Position numbers and translations under genes: made by a program
In this document: piece by piece, positions 4,955 through 38,912 of the stretch
Position numbering within the stretch: position 1 is the first letter of the stretch
Layout of the letters: every line of letters begins with the position of its first letter
Notes under the pieces: model-generated
Told to the model about the DNA's origin: nothing
Database searches by the model: none
Seen by the model: the letters and a program-made list of their open reading frames with translations, nothing else
Virus record (IMG/VR): IMGVR_UViG_3300035459_000066
Location: 1-39,583 of that record
DNA from: a virus
Length of the DNA stretch: 39,583 bases
Direction: 5' to 3' (one strand)

Positions 4955-5152
4955 TTACTTTTTTACTATGTTTTCAATAATCCCGATCTTGGTAATTTCG
5001 CCCTTTGAGTTCCTGACAACGGCTACTGGAAGATCAATGTCTATTCTTAATTTATTCTCAAAAGCATTAGCCTCAAAATTTATTCCATTCCTTTCAAGCA
5101 TCAAAAATATCATATCCAAAACAACTTGATTCATAATCGCGTCTTTACTCAT
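4955..5152 (-). CDS. Hypothetical protein, 65 aa
   Basis: A longer reading begins at 5173, but ATG 5152 has a GGAG Shine-Dalgarno at 6 bases and overlaps the TGA of the upstream gene, so it is the likely start. The protein has an N-terminal helix (MSKDAIMNQVVLDMIFLML) and two or three strands ending in KGEITKIGIIENIVKK. No family recognised. Its place between the ParB/DUF3102-like gene and the organiser gene suggests a DNA-metabolism accessory. Confidence 0.65.
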   Translation of the reverse strand: MSKDAIMNQVVLDMIFLMLERNGINFEANAFENKLRIDIDLPVAVVRNSKGEITKIGIIENIVKK

Positions 5153-5750
5153 TCCATACTCCTTTTTTGGCATCTTTATATTCCTTTATAGACGGAAAAT
5201 TATCTGTCTGTTTTTCATAGAACATTAATACCTTATTAAAATCCTCAAATAAATGCTCAGCTACCCTTTCCCAATTCGCCATAATTACAGGCCTCATAAT
5301 TTCCTGATCATTAAATTTGTCGCGGATCTGTTTACGTAAGTCGGTCTTGCTTAATGTCCTGGCATCCGCTAATAATTCCTGGGTAAGTGCGGGTTGTTGA
5401 ACTATGTACTTACGGATGATGTCCAATTTATCCTGGCCAATCTGAATTAATTGGTCAGTTTGGATGGACTGATTTAATATCAAATCTTTATAAATTCCTT
5501 TAAGTTTATAAGCGGTCGATCTGGCAATCCCTACTTCTGGATCGGCTAAATAAGCATTAAAAGATTTGTAGCCAAGATTTTCATAAAGTTTTTGCTCTTC
5601 CATTTCGTAAAGAGCTTTGGCCAACGGCAAACTCAATCTTTCAATCTCAAAATGACATTGCCGGATTAATATATCGGTTTGATAGGCTTGATCTTTTTGT
5701 TTTTCAATCGTATTACTTTCAACGGGAACCATTTTTGTTGATGACATCAT
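5145..5750 (-). CDS. Helical phage protein with DNA-binding-like region, 201 aa
   Basis: The ORF starts at ATG 5750, overlapping the methyltransferase stop (ATGA), with GAGG about 8 bases upstream. The middle (about residues 45-80) reads like a helix-turn-helix: YKSFNAYLADPEVGIARST and AYKLKGIYKDL, similar to the DUF3102 or ParB-like proteins often found beside phage replication and methyltransferase genes. The C-terminal half is helical and charged. A DNA-binding role in replication or regulation is the best guess; there is no catalytic motif. Confidence 0.65.
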   Translation of the reverse strand: MMSSTKMVPVESNTIEKQKDQAYQTDILIRQCHFEIERLSLPLAKALYEMEEQKLYENLGYKSFNAYLADPEVGIARSTAYKLKGIYKDLILNQSIQTDQLIQIGQDKLDIIRKYIVQQPALTQELLADARTLSKTDLRKQIRDKFNDQEIMRPVIMANWERVAEHLFEDFNKVLMFYEKQTDNFPSIKEYKDAKKGVWNE

Positions 5751-6448
5751 ATATTTAACCTCATCTGTTGGTTGGCATCTCTTATCCGTTTACAGGCAAT
5801 ATCGAAATACTTTGGGTCTATTTCTATTCCTATGAATTTGCGTCCTGTTTGAATACAAGCCACGCCTGTTGTGCCAGAACCCATAAAGGGGTCAAAAACA
5901 ACATTATCCGCGTCTGTCCATTTATCAATAACCATTTCTATAATTGCGGTTGGTTTTTCGGTTGGATGACTCATATCATTTGGATTAACCTTGCCAATTT
6001 CCCAGACACTTCCGTTTCTTTTTCCTCTGATTTTTGCACTGCCTTTATGACATATCAGGATTAGTTCATAGTCTGTTGACAGACTATGAACTAAGTCACC
6101 GATACCCCCCCCGCCTTTATTCCAGACAATGCAGTTTTTAATTTCAAATTCTTTTTGGGCTTCAATGTAATCAACCGCATAATTTTTAAATGATGCAAAT
6201 TCAGCAAACACACTATCAATTTTCATAACCCTAAAAATATATTGAAATGATTGAAGTCGTGAATCATTATTATCATTTTCCAATATGTCAAACTTCTCGG
6301 ATCGCACTCTCATATTGGACTGATAATCTAGCCCATACGGCGGGTCTGTAATCACCGCATCAATAGATTTGTCAGGGATAGATTTCATAACCTCTAAACA
6401 ATCACCCAAATATAAAACACAGTCACCAATAATTACAGGTTTACTCAT
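5747..6448 (-). CDS. Beta-class DNA methyltransferase (N6-adenine type), 233 aa
   Basis: The catalytic motif TDPPYGLDY (DPPY at 35-38) comes first, and the S-adenosylmethionine site DPFMGSGTTGVAC comes near residue 188, the beta-class order seen in N4-cytosine and N6-adenine enzymes. DPPY favours adenine methylation. The target-recognition region between them is short, as in stand-alone phage enzymes. HPTEKP before the SAM motif is also typical. Likely roles are protection of phage DNA from host restriction or marking of DNA for replication. The specificity cannot be read from sequence. It is coupled to its neighbours by short overlaps on both sides. Confidence 0.92.
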   Translation of the reverse strand: MSKPVIIGDCVLYLGDCLEVMKSIPDKSIDAVITDPPYGLDYQSNMRVRSEKFDILENDNNDSRLQSFQYIFRVMKIDSVFAEFASFKNYAVDYIEAQKEFEIKNCIVWNKGGGGIGDLVHSLSTDYELILICHKGSAKIRGKRNGSVWEIGKVNPNDMSHPTEKPTAIIEMVIDKWTDADNVVFDPFMGSGTTGVACIQTGRKFIGIEIDPKYFDIACKRIRDANQQMRLNI

Positions 6449-7750: not shown

Positions 7751-8231
7751 TAATATTTTTCACTTCACCATCAATCATGTCATCGTTCAAATTAGCGGGG
7801 ATTGCTTTATATAAATTCAAATCTATTTCTGCCATTGTCAAGGGCAATCCTTCATCATTGATAACCGTAGGAATTTCAAGGAAACCAAATAAAGCGTCTG
7901 GTTGAACCTCGGCGGCTGTAAGAATCGCCTTGATGAAATAAACCGCGATCCTACCCATTTGATAACGGGCTTGCTCGGTTGCAGGTCTGCTTTTCCCGCC
8001 AAATTTAACTATTCGTTTTGGGTTCCTGCATAACATTGGTACAAATGTAAATCTATACGGCTTTCCGTTCCAGTGAAAACGAACCAACAACGCCGCTTTT
8101 CCATCGCGCGCAGCCTGAGATACCTGGATATTCTCAATTCCAAAGTTTTCAAGCAATGCCATAATTTCACCCTGACTTTTGGAAGGATGAACCGTAGTCA
8201 ACCAATAATTAAAATCTTCTGCATATCTCAT
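7743..8231 (-). CDS. Conserved-looking hypothetical phage protein, 162 aa
   Basis: ATG 8231 overlaps the stop of the upstream microprotein. The protein has a compact alpha/beta pattern: AEDFNYWLTTVHPSKSQGEI, then LVRFHWNGKPYRFTFVPM, then a basic loop, then QARYQMGRIAVYFIKAILTA. I recall similar hypothetical proteins in other phages and bacterial genomes but know no function. No metal or nucleotide motif is visible. It sits between small zinc and winged-helix genes in the middle operon. Confidence 0.75.
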   Translation of the reverse strand: MRYAEDFNYWLTTVHPSKSQGEIMALLENFGIENIQVSQAARDGKAALLVRFHWNGKPYRFTFVPMLCRNPKRIVKFGGKSRPATEQARYQMGRIAVYFIKAILTAAEVQPDALFGFLEIPTVINDEGLPLTMAEIDLNLYKAIPANLNDDMIDGEVKNING

Positions 8232-8332
8232 ATTCGCCTCCGCAATTCAATAATCATATAGATAAAGAGTCCTAAAATGGCTAATCCAATAATCCCCAAC
8301 CCAATTAATGCAAAAGATTCAAGATGGTTCAT
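8228..8332 (-). CDS. Single-pass membrane microprotein, 34 aa
   Basis: ATG 8332 has AGGA five bases upstream, and the TGA overlaps the next ATG. Residues 7-28 form one hydrophobic span (FALIGLGIIGLAILGLFIYM), ending in IIELRRRI, a cytoplasmic basic anchor. It has the same size and layout as the 7649-7750 product, suggesting a related family inserted at a second site, although identity is low. Confidence 0.7.
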   Translation of the reverse strand: MNHLESFALIGLGIIGLAILGLFIYMIIELRRRI

Positions 8333-8659
8333 TTAATTCCTATCCTTAAAGGATTTCAAGAATGACAAAAAGTTTTCAATCGCTTTATCAATATCTGGTT
8401 GGCATAAAAATGATGGGTAATCCCGATTACAAACATAGCAGAATAAAAAACCATTGTATTCACTCCAGGTCAACCTCTCATCGAAATTTCCGTTGGTTAT
8501 CATTTCATACTTACAAACCGGACAATGGTAACCAAGTTCGCAGGGTTGATCTATGGCCATCCCTTTATTAATTCTTAATCCTACAATATCCTCAATTTCT
8601 TTAGAATGTGGATATTCAATATTTTTAGGAATGTCATAAAGTTGGTTAAATGGTTTCAT
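8333..8659 (-). CDS. Zinc-ribbon protein, 108 aa
   Basis: Two cysteine pairs, CPVCKYEM at about residues 48-51 and CYVCNRDYPSFLC near 74-84, form a probable zinc ribbon around the middle of the protein. The rest is charged and helical. It starts nine bases below the SbcC stop and is likely co-transcribed with sbcDC. The binding partner is unknown; DNA, RNA or a host protein are all possible. Confidence 0.75.
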   Translation of the reverse strand: MKPFNQLYDIPKNIEYPHSKEIEDIVGLRINKGMAIDQPCELGYHCPVCKYEMITNGNFDERLTWSEYNGFLFCYVCNRDYPSFLCQPDIDKAIENFLSFLKSFKDRN

Positions 8660-8667
8660 GTTATTGC

Positions 8668-11262
8668 CTATTGATTAATTAGATTTAATACCGAACCTTC
8701 ATTGGTTTTCTCAACTTCAATACGCGAGGGAAAAGCATCTTTTAAATCTTCAAGATGGGTGATAACCAAAATCTTGCGAATATCAGAAACCAGTTCTGAT
8801 CCATTTCGATTATTTCCCATGACAAGATTAATGGCTTCGATTAAATGTTGCCGACCCTCACTATCCTGACTGCCAAAGCCTTCGTCAATTACCAGGGTTT
8901 GTAGTTTCGATCCTGCCCGCCTGGCTAAAGCGTAGGATAATGCCAACCTTATGGCAAAGTTAATCCGAAAGGCTTCTCCACCTGAAAACATTTCATAGGC
9001 ACGCGTACCTTCATTGTCACTAATTAGAATATCCAGTGTTTGAATTGCGCCTTCATCCTTTTTGCTTTTCCGTTCCCTTTGAGTGGCAAAACTCAATGAC
9101 ATTTTCCCCGATGATAATTGGTCCAAAATCTGGTTGGCTTTATTTTCGATATCCGGTAGTGCTTGTTCGATCAATAATGCCGGCAAACCATTTTTACCAA
9201 AGGCGCGCTCCAAAGATTCCAACTTTGAGATTGCTTTTGCTTTTTCTTCACGCTGATTAATTAATTCAGTTTTCTTTTCCTTCTTTGATTGAATGACGTT
9301 GATATTCTGTTCAGCGCGTGCAGTTTCAGTCCTTAATTCATTTTCCTCATTTCGGATTGACGCAAGTTCAGTCTCCATAATTGATAAATCGGGTAAATTT
9401 GAGGAAGCCAGATCATACTTTTGATTACTTTGCAAAACTATATCTATTTGTTTTTTTGTCTTCTCTTCCAAATCAATATTTTTCTTTGATAGTTCTTCTA
9501 TTTCTCTTTTTAATGGTTGTGTAGTGGCCTTTGCTTTTTCCAATAAATTAAAACGCTCTTCATATTGTTTGGCAGATATTTCATTTTGGATAATTTGTTC
9601 ATGCTTTTCTGCGTTATAACCCTGTAATCTTATAGAAACTTCGATCTCGGTCAATCTCCCGCGAGCATCCAACGCAAAATATTTTTTATTTATTTTTTCT
9701 TCCAGTCCATCTAATTGAGCGCCCCCGTTTATTTCCCAATCATCTTTTTCCTTAGCAATAATCTGATTATCTTTTTCCAAGGAAACCAAGTCCCTTAATA
9801 AAAATTGTTTCTTTTCCTCGTCTCCTTCCAAGAAGCCTATCTCTTCTTGCAGATTAATAATCAGAGCATTATTTTCTATAATGGTTTTTTCATTCTCACG
9901 GAATTTATTGCCATTGTTTTTTCCCTCGTTTTCCAATTCTATTAATATTGATGATTGATGTTCGGAAGTTAATTTTTGGCCACAAAGAGGACAATTAGCG
10001 GAAGCCGATTTAAGCTTCTCAATCTTATTTTTAATTTCCTCCATGGATAATCTTAATTGTTTATTCTCCGCATTGAGATCGGATTGTGATTTTTGAAATT
10101 CAAGGAGTTGTTTTTCCCTGATCGGTTTTTCCTTTATTCTTTCCATTAGGGAATTTAATTCCGCCTTATCGTAATCAATGCAATTTTTATTTTCTTCAAA
10201 ACCAATCAATAAATTATCCAGTCTTTGTTTTTTTTGTTTAAGATTAATTATTTCCTGTTCGATTCTTGCTTGTTCTGTTGCGATTAAAGACTCCTGCTCC
10301 AATCTTTGTTGGCTCAATAAATGGAATTGTTTTTCAAGCTTATTAAATTCTTCCAGATCCAAGCGCAAATGTTTAAGTTTATTATTATTTTCAATGATTA
10401 CTTTTTCATCGGACAAAATCTGCTCATAGTATTTAAATTCATCCTGTCGCGATTGGAGGATGGTTAAATTATCTAATTTTTGTTTCCTTAAATCATCTAA
10501 ATTGGCAGTTTGGGTTTTCAAAAGATTTTCATACTCTTTAGCCAGATTTATTTGGCGCCGTGCATTTTCTATTGACAATTCCTTTTCTCTTAAAATCTCA
10601 GATTTTTGTTTCAGATTTAACTTGGATCGATCCAACTCGATTAATAATTCCTTTTCCTTTTCCAATTCCTTATCAATCTCCAATAGCCAAGCATCAATGG
10701 ATATGACCTCATTTGAAATCTCGCGATTCTGTGCTGACACCAATTCTCGATAACTTTCCCAAATGCTAAGATTCAATATATTACTTAATATCTCTTTCCG
10801 CTTTCCTGCTGTCTGTTGAGCAAATTGATCCGCCTTGCCTTGCAAGAAGAAACAAGTATTAATAAATGTCTCGTAATCCATGTGCAGAATTTGTTCTATT
10901 TTCTTTTCGGTCTCACGCAAGGAGTGTTCGGTCATCACCGTCCATTTTTCTTCATGGTCGAGCATTCTTAATTCCAATGTGCTTGTTTTCCCTCGTTTTT
11001 TATTTCTTTGAATTTGATAATGGCCATTCTCATACTCAAATTCAAAAACGACCTCAGCCAAATCAAAGGAACTATTGATCAAGGCGTCATCTTCATTCTT
11101 CCTGGCTTGCCCGAATAATACCCAGGTGATTGCGTCCAATATCGAAGATTTGCCGGCTCCATTGGAACCAGAAATACAAGCTAAATCAAAATTGGTGAAA
11201 TCTAATTCAACGGTTTTTTGGTAGGATAGAAAACCACTGATCTTCAATTTGATGGGGATCAT
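8668..11262 (-). CDS. sbcC: SbcC/Rad50-type DNA repair ATPase, 864 aa
   Basis: Walker A is GSNGAGKSS at residues 32-40. Two long coiled-coil arms flank the zinc hook CPLCGQKL (Cys424 and Cys427). The ABC signature FSGGEAFRINFAIRL comes near 757, and Walker B LQTLVIDEGFGSQD near 790. This is the full Rad50/SbcC/T4 gp46 layout, at the short end of the bacterial range. With SbcD it forms an ATP-driven nuclease that opens hairpins and trims or frees DNA ends; in T4 and T5 the homologous pairs serve recombination-dependent replication or host DNA breakdown. The start overlaps the sbcD stop by ATGA. It takes 2.6 kb, the largest gene of the genome. Confidence 0.96.
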   Translation of the reverse strand: MIPIKLKISGFLSYQKTVELDFTNFDLACISGSNGAGKSSILDAITWVLFGQARKNEDDALINSSFDLAEVVFEFEYENGHYQIQRNKKRGKTSTLELRMLDHEEKWTVMTEHSLRETEKKIEQILHMDYETFINTCFFLQGKADQFAQQTAGKRKEILSNILNLSIWESYRELVSAQNREISNEVISIDAWLLEIDKELEKEKELLIELDRSKLNLKQKSEILREKELSIENARRQINLAKEYENLLKTQTANLDDLRKQKLDNLTILQSRQDEFKYYEQILSDEKVIIENNNKLKHLRLDLEEFNKLEKQFHLLSQQRLEQESLIATEQARIEQEIINLKQKKQRLDNLLIGFEENKNCIDYDKAELNSLMERIKEKPIREKQLLEFQKSQSDLNAENKQLRLSMEEIKNKIEKLKSASANCPLCGQKLTSEHQSSILIELENEGKNNGNKFRENEKTIIENNALIINLQEEIGFLEGDEEKKQFLLRDLVSLEKDNQIIAKEKDDWEINGGAQLDGLEEKINKKYFALDARGRLTEIEVSIRLQGYNAEKHEQIIQNEISAKQYEERFNLLEKAKATTQPLKREIEELSKKNIDLEEKTKKQIDIVLQSNQKYDLASSNLPDLSIMETELASIRNEENELRTETARAEQNINVIQSKKEKKTELINQREEKAKAISKLESLERAFGKNGLPALLIEQALPDIENKANQILDQLSSGKMSLSFATQRERKSKKDEGAIQTLDILISDNEGTRAYEMFSGGEAFRINFAIRLALSYALARRAGSKLQTLVIDEGFGSQDSEGRQHLIEAINLVMGNNRNGSELVSDIRKILVITHLEDLKDAFPSRIEVEKTNEGSVLNLINQ

Positions 11263-12715: not shown

Positions 12716-12977
12716 TTTATTTGCCCTATGCTATTAATTATATCTATTTATTGCCTTTCCACAATGCCCCGTTTTGGTCGGATAGGTCCAGTAGTTTTTG
12801 AGCGGGATTGGTGCCATATCTTGATTGAATACTATTTCTTTATATGACCTTTAACCTATCGCCTCCACTCACTATGAGCGGGCATATCAAAGGCTTTGTC
12901 CAAATCAATTGTAAAAGTTCTCTTGGGGTGAGGAAGTCCGCTTACCCCACCCCAATAAAAAAGGAGGGGAACAAATA
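12716..12977 (-). other. Intergenic region with hairpin upstream of P3
   Basis: This 262-base stretch holds P3 at its downstream end and a hairpin at 12925-12948 (stem GGGGTAAG with CTCACCCC, one wobble pair, 8-base loop). A T6 run on the minus strand lies just before the hairpin rather than after it, so it is not a standard terminator. Short protein-like fragments occur in two minus-strand frames (for example a 27-codon ATG frame near 12820) but lack a Shine-Dalgarno and are broken by stops. I see no supportable gene. Confidence 0.5.
12728..12765 (-). promoter_or_regulatory. Promoter P3, weaker sigma70-like
   Basis: On the minus strand, TATAAT lies at 12742-12737 with a poor TTGTGG -35 element 16 bases upstream. 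It is followed by a GCATAGGGCAAA leader almost the same as behind P1, and the 69-residue gene starts about 15 bases after the predicted transcript start. The perfect -10 box and shared leader support it; the -35 match is weak, so an activator may help. Confidence 0.6.
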
Positions 12978-14045
12978 TTAATTAGGTGGTATGTGTTCCT
13001 TTATTGCCAAATATGCTTTTTGAAAATCACCACCACATTCCTTCAAAATATTAGTGGCAATTTCTTTTTCTATCCTGGCTCTGTTAGCTGTCTGCCAAAA
13101 TGCGGTCGTGATATCCCTTTCCGATAATTGATCAAGATCAGGATACGAGCCGTGTTTTTTCTCAGGAATTATTTCACCCTCGGTGAAATCACCATCATCC
13201 TCTTCTTCACCCAAATCTTCTGACAGGGGAATAGCATCCCATTTATTGCCAGCTGCTTTTACGCCCGGAGTTAACTTTTTATAATCCGTATTTTCGATGA
13301 ATTGTGTTTTCTTTTCATGGTCCAAAAGTTGACCAAACCATGCCGGATTGATTTCAATATCGACAAGCCATTTTGTACGCCTAACCTTTTGTCCGGTTTT
13401 AGCATCCGGGCAACTGATTTCACGAGGCTTTCTTGTTAATATTAATGGGATTGATGAAATACGATATGGCATCTGTGTTAATGTGGCGATTTCTGATGAC
13501 AGGTTCATGCAATCATATTTAGAACCGGTCATAAACATCAACCACGCGGCACGGCGAAGTTCAGGAATTACAATCCTGATCCTACCGACTGGCTTACAAT
13601 AAATAGGCATTTCCTTGCCAGTCTTTTGACTGGTATAGTAACCGCTTGGTTCTTTGGGATTATAGGGATATGTCTTTCCCTTCTGATCGACCAATTCGCC
13701 ATTTTGTACAAGCACATTATTATTTTTGGTATCAATCAGATAATGATAAATTTCACCGTCTGATCTTGCGACCATTCTTCCAGCGGTATAAGCCTCAAGC
13801 CAAAACGATGCCACATCTTCAAGTGTTTCGCTGGGGGGTAAATGGAAGTTTATTGATTGTGGCTGATCGCCATATATTGATTTAAATAGTTCAGCACTTG
13901 CTGATTCATTCAAATCAAAATCCAAACGAAAATAGGTGAGATCTTCACCAGGTCTATTCTCATTTTCTTTTTTCTTGGCCCCCTTGCGGATCTTACCGAT
14001 CATTGGGAAGGCCATTCCCCTATCTGTCAAACCTAATATAGGCAT
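12978..14045 (-). CDS. Gp3-like / recombination directionality factor-like phage protein, 355 aa
   Basis: The protein opens with MPILGLTDRGMAFPMIGKIR, the typical start of a widespread actinophage and Gram-positive phage family often labelled Gp3-like, recombination directionality factor-like, or hydrolase/metal-binding protein. Other shared elements are DLTYFRL, YCKPVGRIRIVIPELRRAAW, SSIPLILTRKPREIS and KWLVDIEINPAWF. The C-terminal 80 residues are acidic, then helical. A few members steer serine integrases, but no integrase occurs here, so a general DNA-binding or replication role is more likely. It lies downstream of the XRE and zinc-ribbon genes of the P2 operon. Confidence 0.75.
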   Translation of the reverse strand: MPILGLTDRGMAFPMIGKIRKGAKKKENENRPGEDLTYFRLDFDLNESASAELFKSIYGDQPQSINFHLPPSETLEDVASFWLEAYTAGRMVARSDGEIYHYLIDTKNNNVLVQNGELVDQKGKTYPYNPKEPSGYYTSQKTGKEMPIYCKPVGRIRIVIPELRRAAWLMFMTGSKYDCMNLSSEIATLTQMPYRISSIPLILTRKPREISCPDAKTGQKVRRTKWLVDIEINPAWFGQLLDHEKKTQFIENTDYKKLTPGVKAAGNKWDAIPLSEDLGEEEDDGDFTEGEIIPEKKHGSYPDLDQLSERDITTAFWQTANRARIEKEIATNILKECGGDFQKAYLAIKEHIPPN

Positions 14046-14060
14046 TTCATTTCTCCTTTA

Positions 14061-14360
14061 TTAATATCCTAATTCTTTTAATAATTGATCATTGGTTTTT
14101 TTCTTATGATCAGGAATAATGATATCAGCCAGGAATTTATTAAACAGTATTTTTTCTTGAACAGAATTATTTAATTGTCGCTCTACGAAATAGTTGGTGA
14201 CAAAACCATTACTGCCACAATTTTTAGCACAACTTACCAACCACGTCTTGTTTTGCCAATCATAGAAGATTTTCAATCTTCCCCAACAACCAGCACAACG
14301 ATAATTCTTCTCAAAGTCCTTGGCTAAGGTCTCATTAATTACCTGTGGTTCCTGCAACAT
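14061..14360 (-). CDS. Zinc-ribbon protein, 99 aa
   Basis: Cysteines in CAGCWGRL at about residues 18-21 and SCAKNCGSNGF at about 43-48 form a probable four-Cys zinc ribbon with aromatic strands between them (KIFYDWQNKTWLV). The C-terminal half is helical (SVQEKILFNKFLADI). The ATG at 14360 shares its base with the stop of the XRE gene. Similar small zinc proteins precede Gp3-like genes in other phages. Probably nucleic-acid binding. Confidence 0.75.
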   Translation of the reverse strand: MLQEPQVINETLAKDFEKNYRCAGCWGRLKIFYDWQNKTWLVSCAKNCGSNGFVTNYFVERQLNNSVQEKILFNKFLADIIIPDHKKKTNDQLLKELGY

Positions 14361-24877: not shown

Positions 24878-25320
24878 CTCATCAATGCCCGTTTTCCTTT
24901 CCCGGTGGTTTTCGTAGGTATGTATTGGGCTATTTTTTCTTCCCTGGTTACTTGGATAAATGGGGTTATCCCACTAAAAAATTGTTCGAACATATTCAAA
25001 TTCAAAGCATCACCGAACACTTTTTTGCTTGTTCCTTTTCCAAACAGAACATCAATCTTTTCCTTAAGAAACTCGCAGACCTCACGGATCAATGCCAATC
25101 CTTCGGGAAGATTATTAGGAATACCATTTTCATCTTTGCCGGTAATTTTTTCAATTTCAAGGCTTCGAACTTCATACTCTTTTTGTTTGATCTCAAAATC
25201 CTTGATAAGTTGGTAAAAACGTTCAGCAAAAACAACATCGGATGGATTGAATTCAATAAACTCCGGGCCGTCATTTATTTGAATTCTTTTTATTCCGGTT
25301 TCAACACGGATAGAATCCAT
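24874..25320 (-). CDS. Tail assembly chaperone, first slot, 148 aa
   Basis: This helical, charged protein (IEFNPSDVVFAERFYQLI, KDFEIKQKEYEVRSLEIEKI) sits between tail tube-related genes and the Gp15-type chaperone, the position of the first tail assembly chaperone. The C-terminus is basic (TKTTGKGKRALMR). Its function is assigned by context and general composition. It is joined by one- and four-base overlaps to both neighbours. Confidence 0.75.
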   Translation of the reverse strand: MDSIRVETGIKRIQINDGPEFIEFNPSDVVFAERFYQLIKDFEIKQKEYEVRSLEIEKITGKDENGIPNNLPEGLALIREVCEFLKEKIDVLFGKGTSKKVFGDALNLNMFEQFFSGITPFIQVTREEKIAQYIPTKTTGKGKRALMR

Positions 25321-25508
25321 TATTCCTCCCTCTTCCGATTAAGTAAATTATCAAATGCGCTTTTTTCTTTTGGGGCGGGTGTATCTTCAGATTCCCTTGA
25401 TTTTTTTGAAGTTGCTACATTTTCAACTTTGACATATCCGGCATGGATAAAAAACACAACCTTATTTTCAGGTACATCAATAATATCGTTTCCACGTTTT
25501 AGTTTCAT
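25320..25508 (-). CDS. Small tail-operon protein, 62 aa
   Basis: A short beta-like head (MKLKRGNDIIDVPENKVVFF, IHAGYVKVE) is followed by a charged unstructured tail. It recalls the product at 29427-29657, which has the same layout of a small N-terminal domain and a disordered Pro/Lys/Glu tail. Such small proteins follow the tube and capsid genes in several phages and may be assembly accessories. Function not established. Confidence 0.65.
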   Translation of the reverse strand: MKLKRGNDIIDVPENKVVFFIHAGYVKVENVATSKKSRESEDTPAPKEKSAFDNLLNRKREE

Positions 25509-25567: not shown

Positions 25568-26056
25568 TTAATTAGCGTAAAAAGAATTGCTTGAAACGTT
25601 AAATCTTCCAGATAAGCCATTACCAACATAGTTAAATGTGAAACTAATTTTTGCAGGGGAACCACCATCACCACCGGGACCATCCTCAATTGAGATAGCT
25701 ACGCTCTGTTTCTCAGCCGGGTAACCACTGGTATTTGAGGATTGATAATAGTTCACGTTAACAATGTCCGTTACCGCATCATCCAATACTGCTCTATTTT
25801 GGCGTAGATTATCAATGTAATCAAAAATGGGTTCGCCTGCATGGGCCGTCATTTCAATAGGCAAAGTCGGCGCATAGGACTCTACTATTTTTGTTGCTGA
25901 ATCCTCGTGAATGTATGTTTCCTCGGTTATCTTTGGGTTCATCGCGACCTTACCGGTTACAACACCCACACCGAGTAACTGATATGACGCGCCAGTGGTC
26001 GAGGATGTATTTACAAAAGTCGCAATTTGTGAACGCTTTACTTTAACATTTTTCAT
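25568..26056 (-). CDS. Major tail (tube) protein, 162 aa
   Basis: A compact beta-rich protein with a basic start (MKNVKVKRSQIATFVNTSST) and a YQLLGVGVVTGKVAMNPKITEE, YIHEDSATKIVES pattern typical of tail tube proteins of A118-type phages. Its position before the chaperones and tape measure agrees. It has a good ribosome site (AAGGAGTAATAAAATG) and a stem-loop after its stop, both consistent with abundant expression. It should form the hexameric rings of the tail tube. Confidence 0.85.
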   Translation of the reverse strand: MKNVKVKRSQIATFVNTSSTTGASYQLLGVGVVTGKVAMNPKITEETYIHEDSATKIVESYAPTLPIEMTAHAGEPIFDYIDNLRQNRAVLDDAVTDIVNVNYYQSSNTSGYPAEKQSVAISIEDGPGGDGGSPAKISFTFNYVGNGLSGRFNVSSNSFYAN

Positions 26057-26077: not shown

Positions 26078-26818
26078 TTATTTTACAATTTCATGGGGCG
26101 GTTCGCCCGTCCCAATAACAGTTGACACATAATCCCACGTGAAAAAATCGGCGGCCGACGTTGGAATATCACCAACCAGATGGCCCATCACACAGGAACG
26201 ATCTACGTAAGCATCAAATCCAGCCAGTTTTGCATGTTGATAAAAATTACGATCTTCACCTCCACCTTCAAAATCATCATCCCATTTGAACCATGCGCCT
26301 TTATTCTCTTTGTGCATTTCCGTCAAAACCGAACGATGGATCAATACACATGATGTCGATGTAAAATCAACATTTACAAGGGCATCATCAGGGCGTGGAT
26401 CGATAACAAATGGATCTCGCCTTCCCATATATTCGGCGTGTTTTTTGAACCAAGCGCGCGTGTCTTTTATTCGTGGGGACATGATCGAATCATCTTTTGG
26501 ATATGCTTTCCAGATATGAGGCATGACCGGCCAAGTTCGCATGAAAATTAATGCTGAGACCAAGGGTTTATCCCAAGATAAAAGGCGCATCAAGGTTTTA
26601 GGATCGCCCACGACATCACTATGCCAGGATAAAAGCCAATCATCACCGCTATTAAGAAATTCAGCCACCGCCATATTCCACGAATATTTGACGTTGTTGG
26701 GACCCGTTCTCTTTAATCTCAATTTGATATTGTCTGGCGTTTCTAGGTCCCACCACGATTGAACGCATGGCCAACGCGCGGAACTATCGGCAGACGGTAT
26801 CCATAATGTTATTTTCAA
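26078..26818 (-). CDS. GT-A-type glycosyltransferase, 246 aa
   Basis: The protein has a GT-A nucleotide-sugar fold signature: MKITLWIPSADSSARW, VKYSWNMAVAEFLNSGDDWLLSWHSDV with the DxD-like acidic site (Asp68), then later VDFTSTSCVLIHRSVL and GGGEDRNFYQHAKLAGFDAYV, the ED motif that holds the acceptor base. It lies between the tail terminator and tail tube genes, an unusual place for an enzyme. It may glycosylate a virion protein during assembly, or modify the host surface. The sugar and acceptor cannot be read from sequence. No membrane segment is seen. Confidence 0.85.
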   Translation of the reverse strand: MKITLWIPSADSSARWPCVQSWWDLETPDNIKLRLKRTGPNNVKYSWNMAVAEFLNSGDDWLLSWHSDVVGDPKTLMRLLSWDKPLVSALIFMRTWPVMPHIWKAYPKDDSIMSPRIKDTRAWFKKHAEYMGRRDPFVIDPRPDDALVNVDFTSTSCVLIHRSVLTEMHKENKGAWFKWDDDFEGGGEDRNFYQHAKLAGFDAYVDRSCVMGHLVGDIPTSAADFFTWDYVSTVIGTGEPPHEIVK

Positions 26819-26820
26819 AT

Positions 26821-27246
26821 TTATGGCTCCTGATCATAAGTTAATTTACATTGAATAGAATATATACCAGTTTCCGATTGACCTTGCTCATATAAAAAAG
26901 CGTGGTCCAATGCTTCTATTTTTTCTGCTGTTCGTCCTGTACCGAGAGAGGTTGGTAAAACACCAGCAAGTGTTTGGCTTTCCAACCAATCTGCAAGTGC
27001 TTCCAATGCACCTAAATTTTCAAGTCTGGTTGCATCATCGGCAGTTGAAAACATTACTTGAATTGCAAAAGGAAATTCACGTTTGCTACCGCCATTAATA
27101 TATTGCTCGACTATCTTAGCGCCTGGCAAAGAAACGATGGAATAACCGACTGGATCAGGCCCAAGAAAATCAATTAATACCGGCGCATTGGTTGCTAAAC
27201 TACCATAAGTTTTTATATAGGTTTGTATAGATTCGAGAATGCTCAC
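26821..27246 (-). CDS. Tail terminator-like protein, 141 aa
   Basis: The protein fits the tail terminator/minor capsid slot between the tail completion protein and the tube. Residues SILESIQTYIKTYGSLATN, LIDFLGPDPVGYSIVSLPG, KREFPFAIQVMFST and LEALADWLESQ are of the type found in A118-like minor proteins (Gp12 slot). It would cap the tail for joining to the head. Assigned by position and pattern, not by a catalytic motif. Confidence 0.78.
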   Translation of the reverse strand: MSILESIQTYIKTYGSLATNAPVLIDFLGPDPVGYSIVSLPGAKIVEQYINGGSKREFPFAIQVMFSTADDATRLENLGALEALADWLESQTLAGVLPTSLGTGRTAEKIEALDHAFLYEQGQSETGIYSIQCKLTYDQEP

Positions 27247-28527: not shown

Positions 28528-29427
28528 CTAACCAGTATAGGCCGATAAACCGGCGATGTAACTTTGTGAAATTATTGCCGTGCTGGTTCCTGGGGTGGCC
28601 GCTAAGTTATGGCAATGCTTGATTAAAGAACTGGCGGCATCTACACCACCAATTTCCATTCCAACACTACAAGATGGAAGGATGGTCACATCATCATAAA
28701 GGTCATTCGATGTGCCGACATTGTAAATTGCCTGATACGCCGTTCGACCGATGACAATGCGCTTGAATACGCAAGAATATGAGGCTCCCAGAATTCCTTG
28801 ATTAAGTCTTTTTGCCCCAGAAGTATTTCCTGAAATGAACAAGTCAGAAAAACAACTTCGAGTTGGTACAGTAGTAAATTTAATCCCCTGCCCTTCAGCG
28901 TCATCGCCACCATTCTTAATAATGGCGAGATTGCGCAGAACAGATTGCGATGGAGCTGAGCCACTATATTCAATGCCTTTCGTTGTTCCTATGCCGTTCA
29001 TATAAAGCACCAGATTTTCAATGAGGGTTTTAGCTTTCGTGACATTGACGACTGAGACGGCTTCGCCAGTGCAGGTGATATTTGAATTACCACCGCCCAT
29101 TAGGTTATTCCACAGGGTTGATCCTATTAGCGCCGTTCCCCATTTATTGAGCAAAATTGGAACAGTGATTGCCCACTCTCCGATCACATACACCGCATCG
29201 CCGCGGTTGGCCAAAGTTGCATCAATAGCCGCTTGAATGGTATTATGAACTGCCTTGCTTCCGTCCAGATAGGTCACATCGTGGGATTCCATGAATTTAT
29301 CATAGAATGCTTCTGTGGCTTGGATGGCGAAGTAGGCATTGCCAACGCCACCATTTAATTCTTTGAAATTATCTCGAATGTCATTGAGCCAATCACTGCC
29401 CTCAATAGGTTTTAAATCATTGCTCAT
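28528..29427 (-). CDS. Right-handed beta-helix protein in the head operon, 299 aa
   Basis: After a helical N-terminus (SDWLNDIRDNFKELNGGVG) comes a pectate-lyase-like start (VHNTIQAAIDATLANRGDAV) and coils of a right-handed beta helix (ALIGSTLWNNLMGGGNSNIT, ENLVLYMNGIGTTKGIEY, FSDLFISGNTSGAKRL). Such folds are usual in tail spikes but this gene is between the capsid and connector genes. It might be a capsid decoration, a head fiber, or an enzyme acting on surface glycan. The stop-start overlap TAATG couples it to the upstream 76-residue gene. Confidence 0.82.
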   Translation of the reverse strand: MSNDLKPIEGSDWLNDIRDNFKELNGGVGNAYFAIQATEAFYDKFMESHDVTYLDGSKAVHNTIQAAIDATLANRGDAVYVIGEWAITVPILLNKWGTALIGSTLWNNLMGGGNSNITCTGEAVSVVNVTKAKTLIENLVLYMNGIGTTKGIEYSGSAPSQSVLRNLAIIKNGGDDAEGQGIKFTTVPTRSCFSDLFISGNTSGAKRLNQGILGASYSCVFKRIVIGRTAYQAIYNVGTSNDLYDDVTILPSCSVGMEIGGVDAASSLIKHCHNLAATPGTSTAIISQSYIAGLSAYTG

Positions 29428-29657
29428 TATCCACCTCCGCGATTACCAAAGATTCCACCGGCGGGTTTTTCTGGTTGATCGCTTTTAACGTTCTCATCTT
29501 GATTCTCGACGGGCTTTTCAACCACTTCTTCCGCAGGTTTTGATTTTCCGAATGAGCCTGATTTCTCATCAAGTTCTTTATAGCCAGCGCGTTTCAATTC
29601 ATTGATGATTGTCTGACTTTCGGTAATTCTGACAATTCCATCTTTATACAATTTCAT
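29427..29657 (-). CDS. Small capsid-operon protein, 76 aa
   Basis: A short N-terminal domain (MKLYKDGIVRITESQTIINE, LKRAGYKEL) is followed by a disordered tail rich in Lys, Glu, Pro and Gly (EKPAGGIFGNRGGG). It has the same layout as the 62-residue protein at 25320. Such genes directly follow capsid genes in many phages and may be head-assembly accessories. Function unknown. Confidence 0.7.
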   Translation of the reverse strand: MKLYKDGIVRITESQTIINELKRAGYKELDEKSGSFGKSKPAEEVVEKPVENQDENVKSDQPEKPAGGIFGNRGGG

Positions 29658-31359: not shown

Positions 31360-31449
31360 CGTTTTCCCGTCCTATCTTATGATTTGCACCCCACCCAAAA
31401 GCGTGATGCTGTAATTATTTATTTATCTTAAAATTTTTATACTCTTTTG

Positions 31450-31520
31450 TTGCGGGAAATGGGGTTGAACCATTACCTTTGGTGTATGAAGCCAATGAGC
31501 TACCAGAGCTCCATCCCGCA
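31450..31520 (-). tRNA. tRNA-Met (CAT), initiator-like body, 71 nt
   Basis: A cloverleaf can be drawn in full: acceptor TGCGGGA with TCCCGCA (seven pairs), D stem GAGC with GCTC, anticodon stem TTGGC with ACCAA (four pairs and a C-A mismatch), loop TTCATAC with anticodon CAT, four-base variable loop, T stem AATGG with CCATT and T loop TTCAACC, discriminator A. CCA is not encoded. The GGAGC...GGTAGCTC D arm resembles initiator tRNA, but the pairs of the anticodon stem are not the three G-C of an initiator. The D loop is short and lacks A14. It may be a working tRNA, a tRNA-Ile2 precursor, or a decoy. Confidence 0.8.
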
Positions 31521-37343: not shown

Positions 37344-38912
37344 TTATATTTTAAATCTCATTTGTTGTTGTGATTTCTTTATTCTGTTATTGCTCATATC
37401 TATATACGCAGGATTAATATCACTGCCTATATAGTTCCTGCCATATTTCAAAGCCACAACTCCGGTTGTTCCCGCCCCATTGAAAGGATCGAGTATTACC
37501 CCCCCCTGTGGGCATCCAGCTAATACGCATGGTTTAATCAAATCCTCGGGAAATACAGCAAAATGCGCTTCCTTGAATGGTTTTGTGGCCACCCACCAGA
37601 CATCTCTTTTATTACGCATCATATTAGTTTCAATATCTTGACCGTGGTGCTGTTGATTATCTATTTGTTCTTTTATTTTAAATCCTCTCGTTAACCATCT
37701 GTTCCCCATTGGTTTATCACCTGTTTTTTGTGGACTACTTCTTAATTTTCTTAGTTCAGAATCATCCGTTCCATTCCAACTATTTTTTATTCTCTTGATA
37801 GCCGATAGTGTGGCGGGTTCTAATATTGCTTGATAATCATAATAATAATTTGCTGATTTCGTCAATAAAAATATGTATTCATGGTTTCGGGTAGGTCTAT
37901 CTTTCATCGATTCGGGCATGCAATTTCTTTTTGCCCAAATAATATCGGATCGTAAATACCATCCATCCTCAATCTTTTGTTTTGGTTCCTCTATCCAATT
38001 AGGTAAATCAAATTTTTCTCGCTGATTACATTTCTTTATTGATTCAAATAGAAATGCCTTTTTATCTTGAATATCCTTTGGAACTTTACCATCCATCCTT
38101 TGCTTATTCTTATGAATTACATCAAGTGTAAAAGCAAGACACGCCTGTTTGCGCTTTGCTATTAGATATGGATATATTGCCCTGATAACATTAATAGCAT
38201 CATTACCATCCAATCTCCACCCATAACTATCTCTGCGAGATACAATTCCCCTACCGTCAGTTGAACCCGCACTCTGTTTTAATTTAACATTTCCCTTTCC
38301 GGTAATTCTCACGCATTTTTCAAGTAATATAATGTCATTATTAGTTACTACCGTATAGGCAACAAATCCATCTTGATATATCTGTTTTTTCTCTTTCCTG
38401 TAAGAATCAAATCTGCGTATTCCGATGCAACCTTCTCCATCAAACATTGCTGCCAACCATGCTTTATCAACATCATTTTTTATACAGTCATGCAATATAT
38501 AAGGTTGTTGTAATGCGAAGGCGACACGCCAGGGGATTCCGATAAGGTCTTTATCTTTTAATCCATTTGCGTCTCTATCAAATACACCTTCTCTCGGTGT
38601 TCCAAACCCTGCCCTTCCTCCATTACTCGCCCTCGAACAATTGCTGGCGTAACTATCTCCCAAATTCAACCAAACCGTTCCATCATCTTTCAATACCCGC
38701 TTGATTTCTCGGAATAATTCAACTAAATGCTGGACATATAAATCAGGGGTTGGCTCTAATCCAAACTGACCGTCAACTTTATAGTCGCGCAATCCCCAAT
38801 ATGGCGGAGATGTGATCACGCAATGAATGGATTGATTCGGTAATGTTTTTGCAATTTCAATGCAGTCACCGGTATATAAGGTACAGCCATCACCAATAAT
38901 GGGATCATTCAT
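37344..38912 (-). CDS. DNA methyltransferase with internal LAGLIDADG-type insertion, 522 aa
   Basis: The methyltransferase is beta-class: catalytic TSPPYWGLRDY (Ser-Pro-Pro-Tyr at 35-38) first and SAM site DPFNGAGTTGVVAL (475-488) last. SPPY is common in N4-cytosine enzymes, though adenine enzymes also have it. Normally GIPWRVAFALQ runs straight to GWYLRSDIIWAKRN. Here about 180 residues (136-315) intervene, with AWLAAMFDGEGCIGIRR (151-167) as a LAGLIDADG motif and INVIRAIYPYLIAKRKQACL as its partner half. The frame stays open and motifs on both sides are intact. There is no intein splice pattern, so the insert is probably translated as part of the enzyme. Specificity unknown. Confidence 0.9.
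   Translation of the reverse strand: MNDPIIGDGCTLYTGDCIEIAKTLPNQSIHCVITSPPYWGLRDYKVDGQFGLEPTPDLYVQHLVELFREIKRVLKDDGTVWLNLGDSYASNCSRASNGGRAGFGTPREGVFDRDANGLKDKDLIGIPWRVAFALQQPYILHDCIKNDVDKAWLAAMFDGEGCIGIRRFDSYRKEKKQIYQDGFVAYTVVTNNDIILLEKCVRITGKGNVKLKQSAGSTDGRGIVSRRDSYGWRLDGNDAINVIRAIYPYLIAKRKQACLAFTLDVIHKNKQRMDGKVPKDIQDKKAFLFESIKKCNQREKFDLPNWIEEPKQKIEDGWYLRSDIIWAKRNCMPESMKDRPTRNHEYIFLLTKSANYYYDYQAILEPATLSAIKRIKNSWNGTDDSELRKLRSSPQKTGDKPMGNRWLTRGFKIKEQIDNQQHHGQDIETNMMRNKRDVWWVATKPFKEAHFAVFPEDLIKPCVLAGCPQGGVILDPFNGAGTTGVVALKYGRNYIGSDINPAYIDMSNNRIKKSQQQMRFKI

Follow-up and report, generated by a model that had tools for sequence, protein, structure and literature searches.

The window analysed here is an IMG/VR-type virus record 39,583 bases long. 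Its minus strand carries a run of structural genes in the order scaffold, capsid, small protein, head-slot protein, adaptor, DUF6751 and minor capsid, followed by completion, a predicted glycosyltransferase (GT), tube, two small tail genes, Gp15 and tape measure. The GT gene starts 2 nt past the stop of the completion gene and stops 21 nt short of the tube gene. The features at this junction are as follows.

26078..26818, minus strand: GT2-like glycosyltransferase (GT) gene, predicted; 246 aa, TTG start, also found in five other contigs
26827..26831, minus strand: AGGAG ribosome-binding site of the GT gene, read from the sequence; within the 3' end of the upstream gene
26821..27246, minus strand: tail completion (terminator) gene, the upstream neighbour of the GT (phrog_3266, E 8.4e-31)
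25568..26056, minus strand: tail tube gene, proposed substrate of the GT (phrog_3099, E 7.2e-35)

The tube family profile matches PDB entry 11ok_A, a solved 'Phage tail tube protein' (E 7.3e-10). A first-pass annotation had described an enzyme gene lying between the tail tube and terminator genes in the same orientation; this arrangement stands, and its coordinates, 26078-26818 on the minus strand, are exact. The ORF is a real gene and not a chance reading frame, because it is kept in five other contigs (64%–75% amino-acid identity to the window's protein) although synonymous change relative to the window is saturated (pN 0.17-0.24, pS 0.75-0.88). A search for a promoter of its own gave nine promoter-like sites against 11.1 expected, none above chance, and the gene order suggests that the GT would be expressed late, together with the structural proteins.

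Small proteins are encoded both after the tube gene (25320-25508) and after the capsid gene (29427-29657), and a profile begun from the first of these matches both positions in relatives (after the tube in L097, after the capsid in L094). A lone tRNA-Met (CAT) gene lies on the minus strand at 31449-31520, upstream of the scaffold gene. The DNA methyltransferase encoded at 37344-38912 looks as if it had taken up an insertion: its middle, residues 146-286, matches a family of HNH endonucleases.

The assignment of the product to the glycosyltransferases rests on remote similarity. Its PHROG matches are to a glycosyltransferase family (E 3.2e-5) and to an unnamed family (E 1.6e-4), and neither Pfam nor NCBIfam gave a match up to E 1. 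A profile built from five family members was run over 396 genomes belonging to the class of an Anaerolinea MAG and matched five of them (E 1.5e-5 to 7.5e-4); it also matched one bacterial genome among 13 records searched earlier. Five of these six matched proteins (four of the five, plus the one from the 13 records) are clear Pfam GT2 enzymes, and the sixth (L200), which has no Pfam match, aligns with the GT family at 96.3% in hhalign. Against the five Pfam GT2 proteins the GT family reaches 97.7% (E 1.8e-12) over residues 41-227, with the motifs in like order; these five were selected by the GT-profile match itself, and the independent fact is Pfam's GT2 call on them. Control alignments of the GT family with Che8 gp108-110 and with the Maf-like family described below gave 0.1-0.2%. 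A PDB sequence search with the profile returned chance-like matches only, and the AlphaFold model was poor (pLDDT 46, pTM 0.44); used as a query against the PDB, it gave no match reaching E 0.001. Three short motifs are invariant among the five aligned members.

26615..26623, minus strand: H-S-D, residues 66-68, occupying the D-x-D metal-motif position; H66 and D68 the same in all five members, aligned to N-P-D of the GT2 proteins
26252..26266, minus strand: GGGED, residues 185-189, ED motif; invariant in 5/5, aligned to ED of the GT2 proteins
26180..26185, minus strand: G-H, residues 212-213, possible late metal-binding His; invariant in 5/5

By comparison with GT-A enzymes in general, GGGED would be the ED motif, and the His of the late GH may bind metal. 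The first-pass annotation was right as to enzyme type, though the relationship is remote; its 'GT-A acidic site' reads H-x-D rather than D-x-D and is accompanied by GGGED and the late GH. We accept the protein as a remote GT2-like glycosyltransferase of predicted activity. Phage DNA glucosyltransferases exist, and the window has DNA methyltransferases, which might suggest that the GT glucosylates phage DNA as the T4 enzymes do. We consider this extremely unlikely, as the GT sits among tail genes and no base-hypermodification enzyme was found among the window proteins scanned, a subset of the ORFs.

Direct scans with the GT protein alone or the tube protein alone retrieved nothing from viral contigs. 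A search of 50,697 isolated-phage records with the GT was likewise negative, and tblastn matches there up to E 10 for two relatives were unusable. Relatives were reached through a capsid-alignment scan of viral contigs, which gave 80 loci, and further loci were added using the GT, the Maf-like protein and the tube as queries. A later GT scan gave four contigs, and the fifth (L121) came only through the tube scan, so the GT scans are not exhaustive. The resulting pool holds 199 loci, 161 of them with both flanking genes and 112 distinct by sequence; three loci from a motif scan were kept in the pool and enter no count. Among bacterial contigs with a related tube, 3 of 10, including the best match, come from Anaerolinea/Anaerolineales MAGs; the matches to contigs of Bacteroidota and Bacillota MAGs are almost as good. 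A search with phrog_34859 found no match in 101 genomes, nor in controls, and is uninformative.

The gap between the completion and tube genes is empty in 89 of the 112 distinct loci and exceeds 60 nt in 23. These 23 hold the GT (six), a Maf/sialyltransferase-like gene (ten, including two near-duplicate pairs), a homing endonuclease (one), an ORF of 112 aa (one), ORFs of 62-64 aa (three) or no clear gene (two); many of the enzyme-bearing loci came from enzyme-aimed scans, so these counts are not prevalences. In the first set, drawn mostly from the capsid scan, the GT occurs in 3 of 59 loci and the Maf-like gene in 4 of 59 (L062 included). In all six distinct phage loci that have it, the GT sits in the completion-tube slot. 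Seven junctions in the structural run were compared for additional ORFs of at least 100 aa. These are common in two, capsid-adaptor (65/81) and completion-tube (17/108), and number 0-3 in the other five. We no longer regard the completion-tube slot as reserved for sugar enzymes, given the homing endonuclease, of GIY-YIG type (L037, 3751-4533), and the small ORFs found there. GIY-YIG look-alikes, recognized by eye, lie at other junctions of the structural run (L140, 1147-1755; L153, 1077-1760; L044, 10576-11181), and two loci have tandem tube genes, the second of which is extended at the C terminus by ~90 aa (L032, 10626-11879; L039, 11167-12432). A literature search of open-licence papers found no report of this slot or of GT-tube co-inheritance.

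The Maf-like gene is unrelated to the GT and in several of its ten loci abuts or overlaps the tube gene. Two of its proteins match PF01973 at 3e-6 and 0.002, below the cut-off (27.5 of 34.6 bits), and phrog_4603 at 3e-5 and 0.14; a fold search ranked thiamine pyrophosphokinase first and found the CstII sialyltransferase weakly. A scan with it gave 13 loci, in 11 of which the gene lies between completion and tube; one contig (L109) ends inside the gene and the other locus (L108) has it elsewhere. In L108, two tandem Maf-like genes (4989-6276) stand outside the tube slot beside head genes, with a weak major-head-protein match in the upstream gene (5e-5) and a weak head-protein match in the downstream one. 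Maf proteins glycosylate flagellin, which forms another helical tube.

We compared the distribution of the GT with trees of the tube and of six neighbouring genes. The trees include 92 of the 112 distinct loci; the 20 rows left out are distant phage, viral or genome records, fragments (among them the Maf-like L099) and near-duplicates. A more careful tube tree of 90 loci also leaves out two long rows (L018, L049), and the tube trees were computed without the columns of the candidate acceptor loop discussed below. In the 92-locus tube tree the six GT loci form one clade with support 99; in the careful tree the clade has support 99/95 and appears in 98% of 200 bootstrap trees, the bootstrap being not fully settled. 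The GT label requires one change on the tube tree, compared with five to six on the ADAPT, DUF6751, MCAP, TERM, G13 and GP15 trees, of which ADAPT and GP15 hold five of the six GT rows. Five to six changes for five or six rows is about what shuffled labels give, and well-supported branches force two or three, the six neighbour trees being poorly resolved (10-13 starred branches each). A single GT clade is rejected for TERM, the completion gene, which is adjacent upstream and nearer to the GT than the tube is (AU p 0.036), and is not rejected for G13, downstream (AU p 0.34). The Maf-like label behaves similarly, with two changes on the tube tree and four to six on the others.

In pairwise comparisons two contigs, L019 and L097, give the same picture. 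L019 is the closest relative by ADAPT, DUF6751, MCAP, TERM and GP15 (72%–83% identity to the window), yet lacks the GT. The first-pass annotation had taken absence of the gene from close relatives without other change to count against its proposal; this relative does lack the gene, but there is another change, since its tube is only 49% identical to that of the window while the four genes just upstream are 76%–83% identical. Its identity to the window is 64% for G13, 64% for MCP and 56% for the head-slot protein. At the nucleotide level, the match of L097 to the window's structural region is confined to a stretch that begins with the GT and ends ~110 nt beyond the tube (12767-14125 of the reverse complement). 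In L015, L073 and L096 the similarity continues through the completion gene that precedes the GT. The window's tube is 53%–65% identical to GT-linked tubes and 48%–57% identical to the unlinked tubes compared, ranges that overlap. We favour, short of proof, the reading that the GT and the tube have been kept together while their neighbours were exchanged, as an enzyme and its substrate would be.

Since the GT loci form a single tube clade, the association represents one event, and this bears on the view that the GT is neutral cargo, or has lost sugar transfer, and that its link to the tube marks where recombination happens to fall. The H-x-D in place of D-x-D and the similarity reaching beyond GT and tube in three of the four GT relatives compared point the same way. 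We nevertheless think it very unlikely, given purifying selection across saturated synonymous distances, the conserved motifs, and a second, unrelated family, the Maf-like one, that behaves alike. Another possibility is that the GT is a moron that entered the run at a permissive junction and modifies the host surface, for receptor masking or superinfection exclusion. Some phage GTs do act on surface sugars of the host, and a homing endonuclease and small ORFs occur in the slot as well, but the GT lies in a tight late-gene run with no promoter of its own above chance and follows the tube lineage, so we rate this as quite improbable. That the GT follows the tube and not six other neighbours, and that an unrelated sugar-transferase-like gene fills the slot elsewhere, partly supports the interpretation of the first-pass annotation in which the tube is the target.

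The capsid-adaptor junction, the other place where extra ORFs are common, normally holds the head-slot protein (28528-29427 in the window, without a Pfam match). By eye, head-slot proteins of many loci have a short N-terminal stretch like G-x-D/G-W-L-x-D-x-x-x-N-F and quite different C-terminal parts; perhaps they consist of a common head anchor and an exchangeable decoration. In some relatives this slot holds glycan cassettes.

L044, 8407-10579: glycan cassette in the capsid-adaptor slot
L046, 6124-8907: glycan cassette, same slot
L056, 8421-10584: glycan cassette, same slot
L060, 8419-11192: glycan cassette, same slot
L063, 1869-4679: glycan cassette, same slot
L193, 2231-4394: glycan cassette, same slot

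The cassettes contain a GT2, a methyltransferase, a nucleotidyltransferase in some, and a protein of 312-320 aa without a Pfam family. Pfam matches are PF00535 above the cut-off in L044, L046 and L060, Methyltransf_24 in L044 and L046, and NTP_transf_3 in L046 and L060; the cassette genes of the remaining loci were marked by profiles made from the Pfam-tested cassette proteins. L140 holds the end of another such cassette. The prophage-like contig L206, whose genome belongs to the class of an Anaerolinea MAG, is otherwise different and has another capsid gene. On its minus strand (8166-10923), this capsid gene is separated from the tail genes by a homologue of the window's GT and a GT-B-like gene (phrog_7162, 4.6e-6).

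These capsid-side genes bring up the reading that the GT acts on a virion protein other than the tube (the head-slot protein, the capsid or tail fibres, for example) and is linked to the tube only physically. The glycan cassettes of relatives adjoin the capsid gene, as does the GT homologue in L206, and the Maf-like genes of L108 are near head genes. However, the GT label is scattered on the head-side trees tested (ADAPT, DUF6751, MCAP), and L097 has the GT without a match to this capsid family, which leaves this reading unlikely in our estimation.

A candidate for the acceptor was sought in the tube itself.

25724..25741, minus strand: SSNTSG, tube residues 106-111, candidate acceptor loop; of all 6-residue windows, the one with the greatest Ser/Thr enrichment in GT-linked over unlinked tubes

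Tubes linked to the GT have 3.67 Ser/Thr at these positions, compared with 1.66 in unlinked tubes, and at least three Ser/Thr are found in the loop in 6/6 GT-linked, 7/7 Maf-linked, 13/74 unlinked and 0/5 other-insert tubes. The loop is longer in Maf-linked tubes (mean 7.9 versus 6.3). Each enzyme group is nearly one clade, so the enrichment amounts to two or three events and a paired test cannot reach significance. The Maf-like locus L062 has the same loop as the enzyme-free L085, and lies beside the enzyme-free L179 in both trees. We have therefore downgraded the Ser/Thr-rich loop, which had been considered strong evidence, in view of the near-single clade per enzyme and the loop common to L062 and L085; as an acceptor site, residues 106-111 are a hint only.

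Our proposal, to which we would give an even chance, is that the GT glycosylates the tail tube, as a variant of the virion glycosylation known from mycobacteriophages. The GT would be made with the late structural proteins and would transfer a sugar from a host nucleotide-sugar to Ser/Thr of the tube subunit encoded by the adjacent gene, before or during tail assembly, perhaps at the loop of residues 106-111, and the finished tail would be sugar-coated. Enzymatic activity, donor, acceptor residue and timing are all predictions, as would be any effect of the coat on adsorption or protection. More tentatively, and with the odds somewhat against it, the completion-tube junction may be a dedicated tail-coat slot, in which GT2-like or Maf-like transferases are swapped together with a matching tube lineage bearing a Ser/Thr-rich loop, and the second slot, behind the capsid gene, would hold whole cassettes for sugar synthesis. 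On this reading the head and the tail would each receive a coat from a separate exchangeable module, with enzymes specific for their own structural protein.

Virion glycosylation in phages is so far known from a few mycobacteriophages. If the proposal is true, an uncultivated, environmental phage lineage has it too, and its target can be named from genomes, as the enzyme and substrate genes are co-inherited while their neighbours are exchanged. The six GT-tube pairs and about eight Maf-like-tube pairs offer testable material for tube recognition by phage enzymes. It also raises the question of what use a sugar-coated tail has where no antibodies exist.

Compared with the bacterial GT2 glycosyltransferases (PF00535/PF13641), the window GT has a profile-profile match over residues 41-227 and the same motif order, and differs in having no Pfam match of its own, an H-x-D motif, a short length (246 aa) and a position in a phage tail module. 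The Maf-like proteins (PF01973, phrog_4603) are encoded in the equivalent slot and orientation, where their genes in several loci abut or overlap that of the tube, and are unlike the GT in sequence (hhalign 0.1%). As described in PMC12363180, mycobacteriophage enzymes (Che8 gp110, Corndog gp38, Myrna) glycosylate the capsid and tail tube. The window's GT family has no match to Che8 gp108, gp109 or gp110, compared as single sequences (hhalign 0.1-0.2%), and the Che8 genes lie near the right end of their genome whereas the window GT lies inside the tail run. What the two have in common is the role: the mycobacteriophage system consists of phage-encoded glycosyltransferases acting on capsid and tail tube, and a like role, on the tube, is proposed for the GT of the window.
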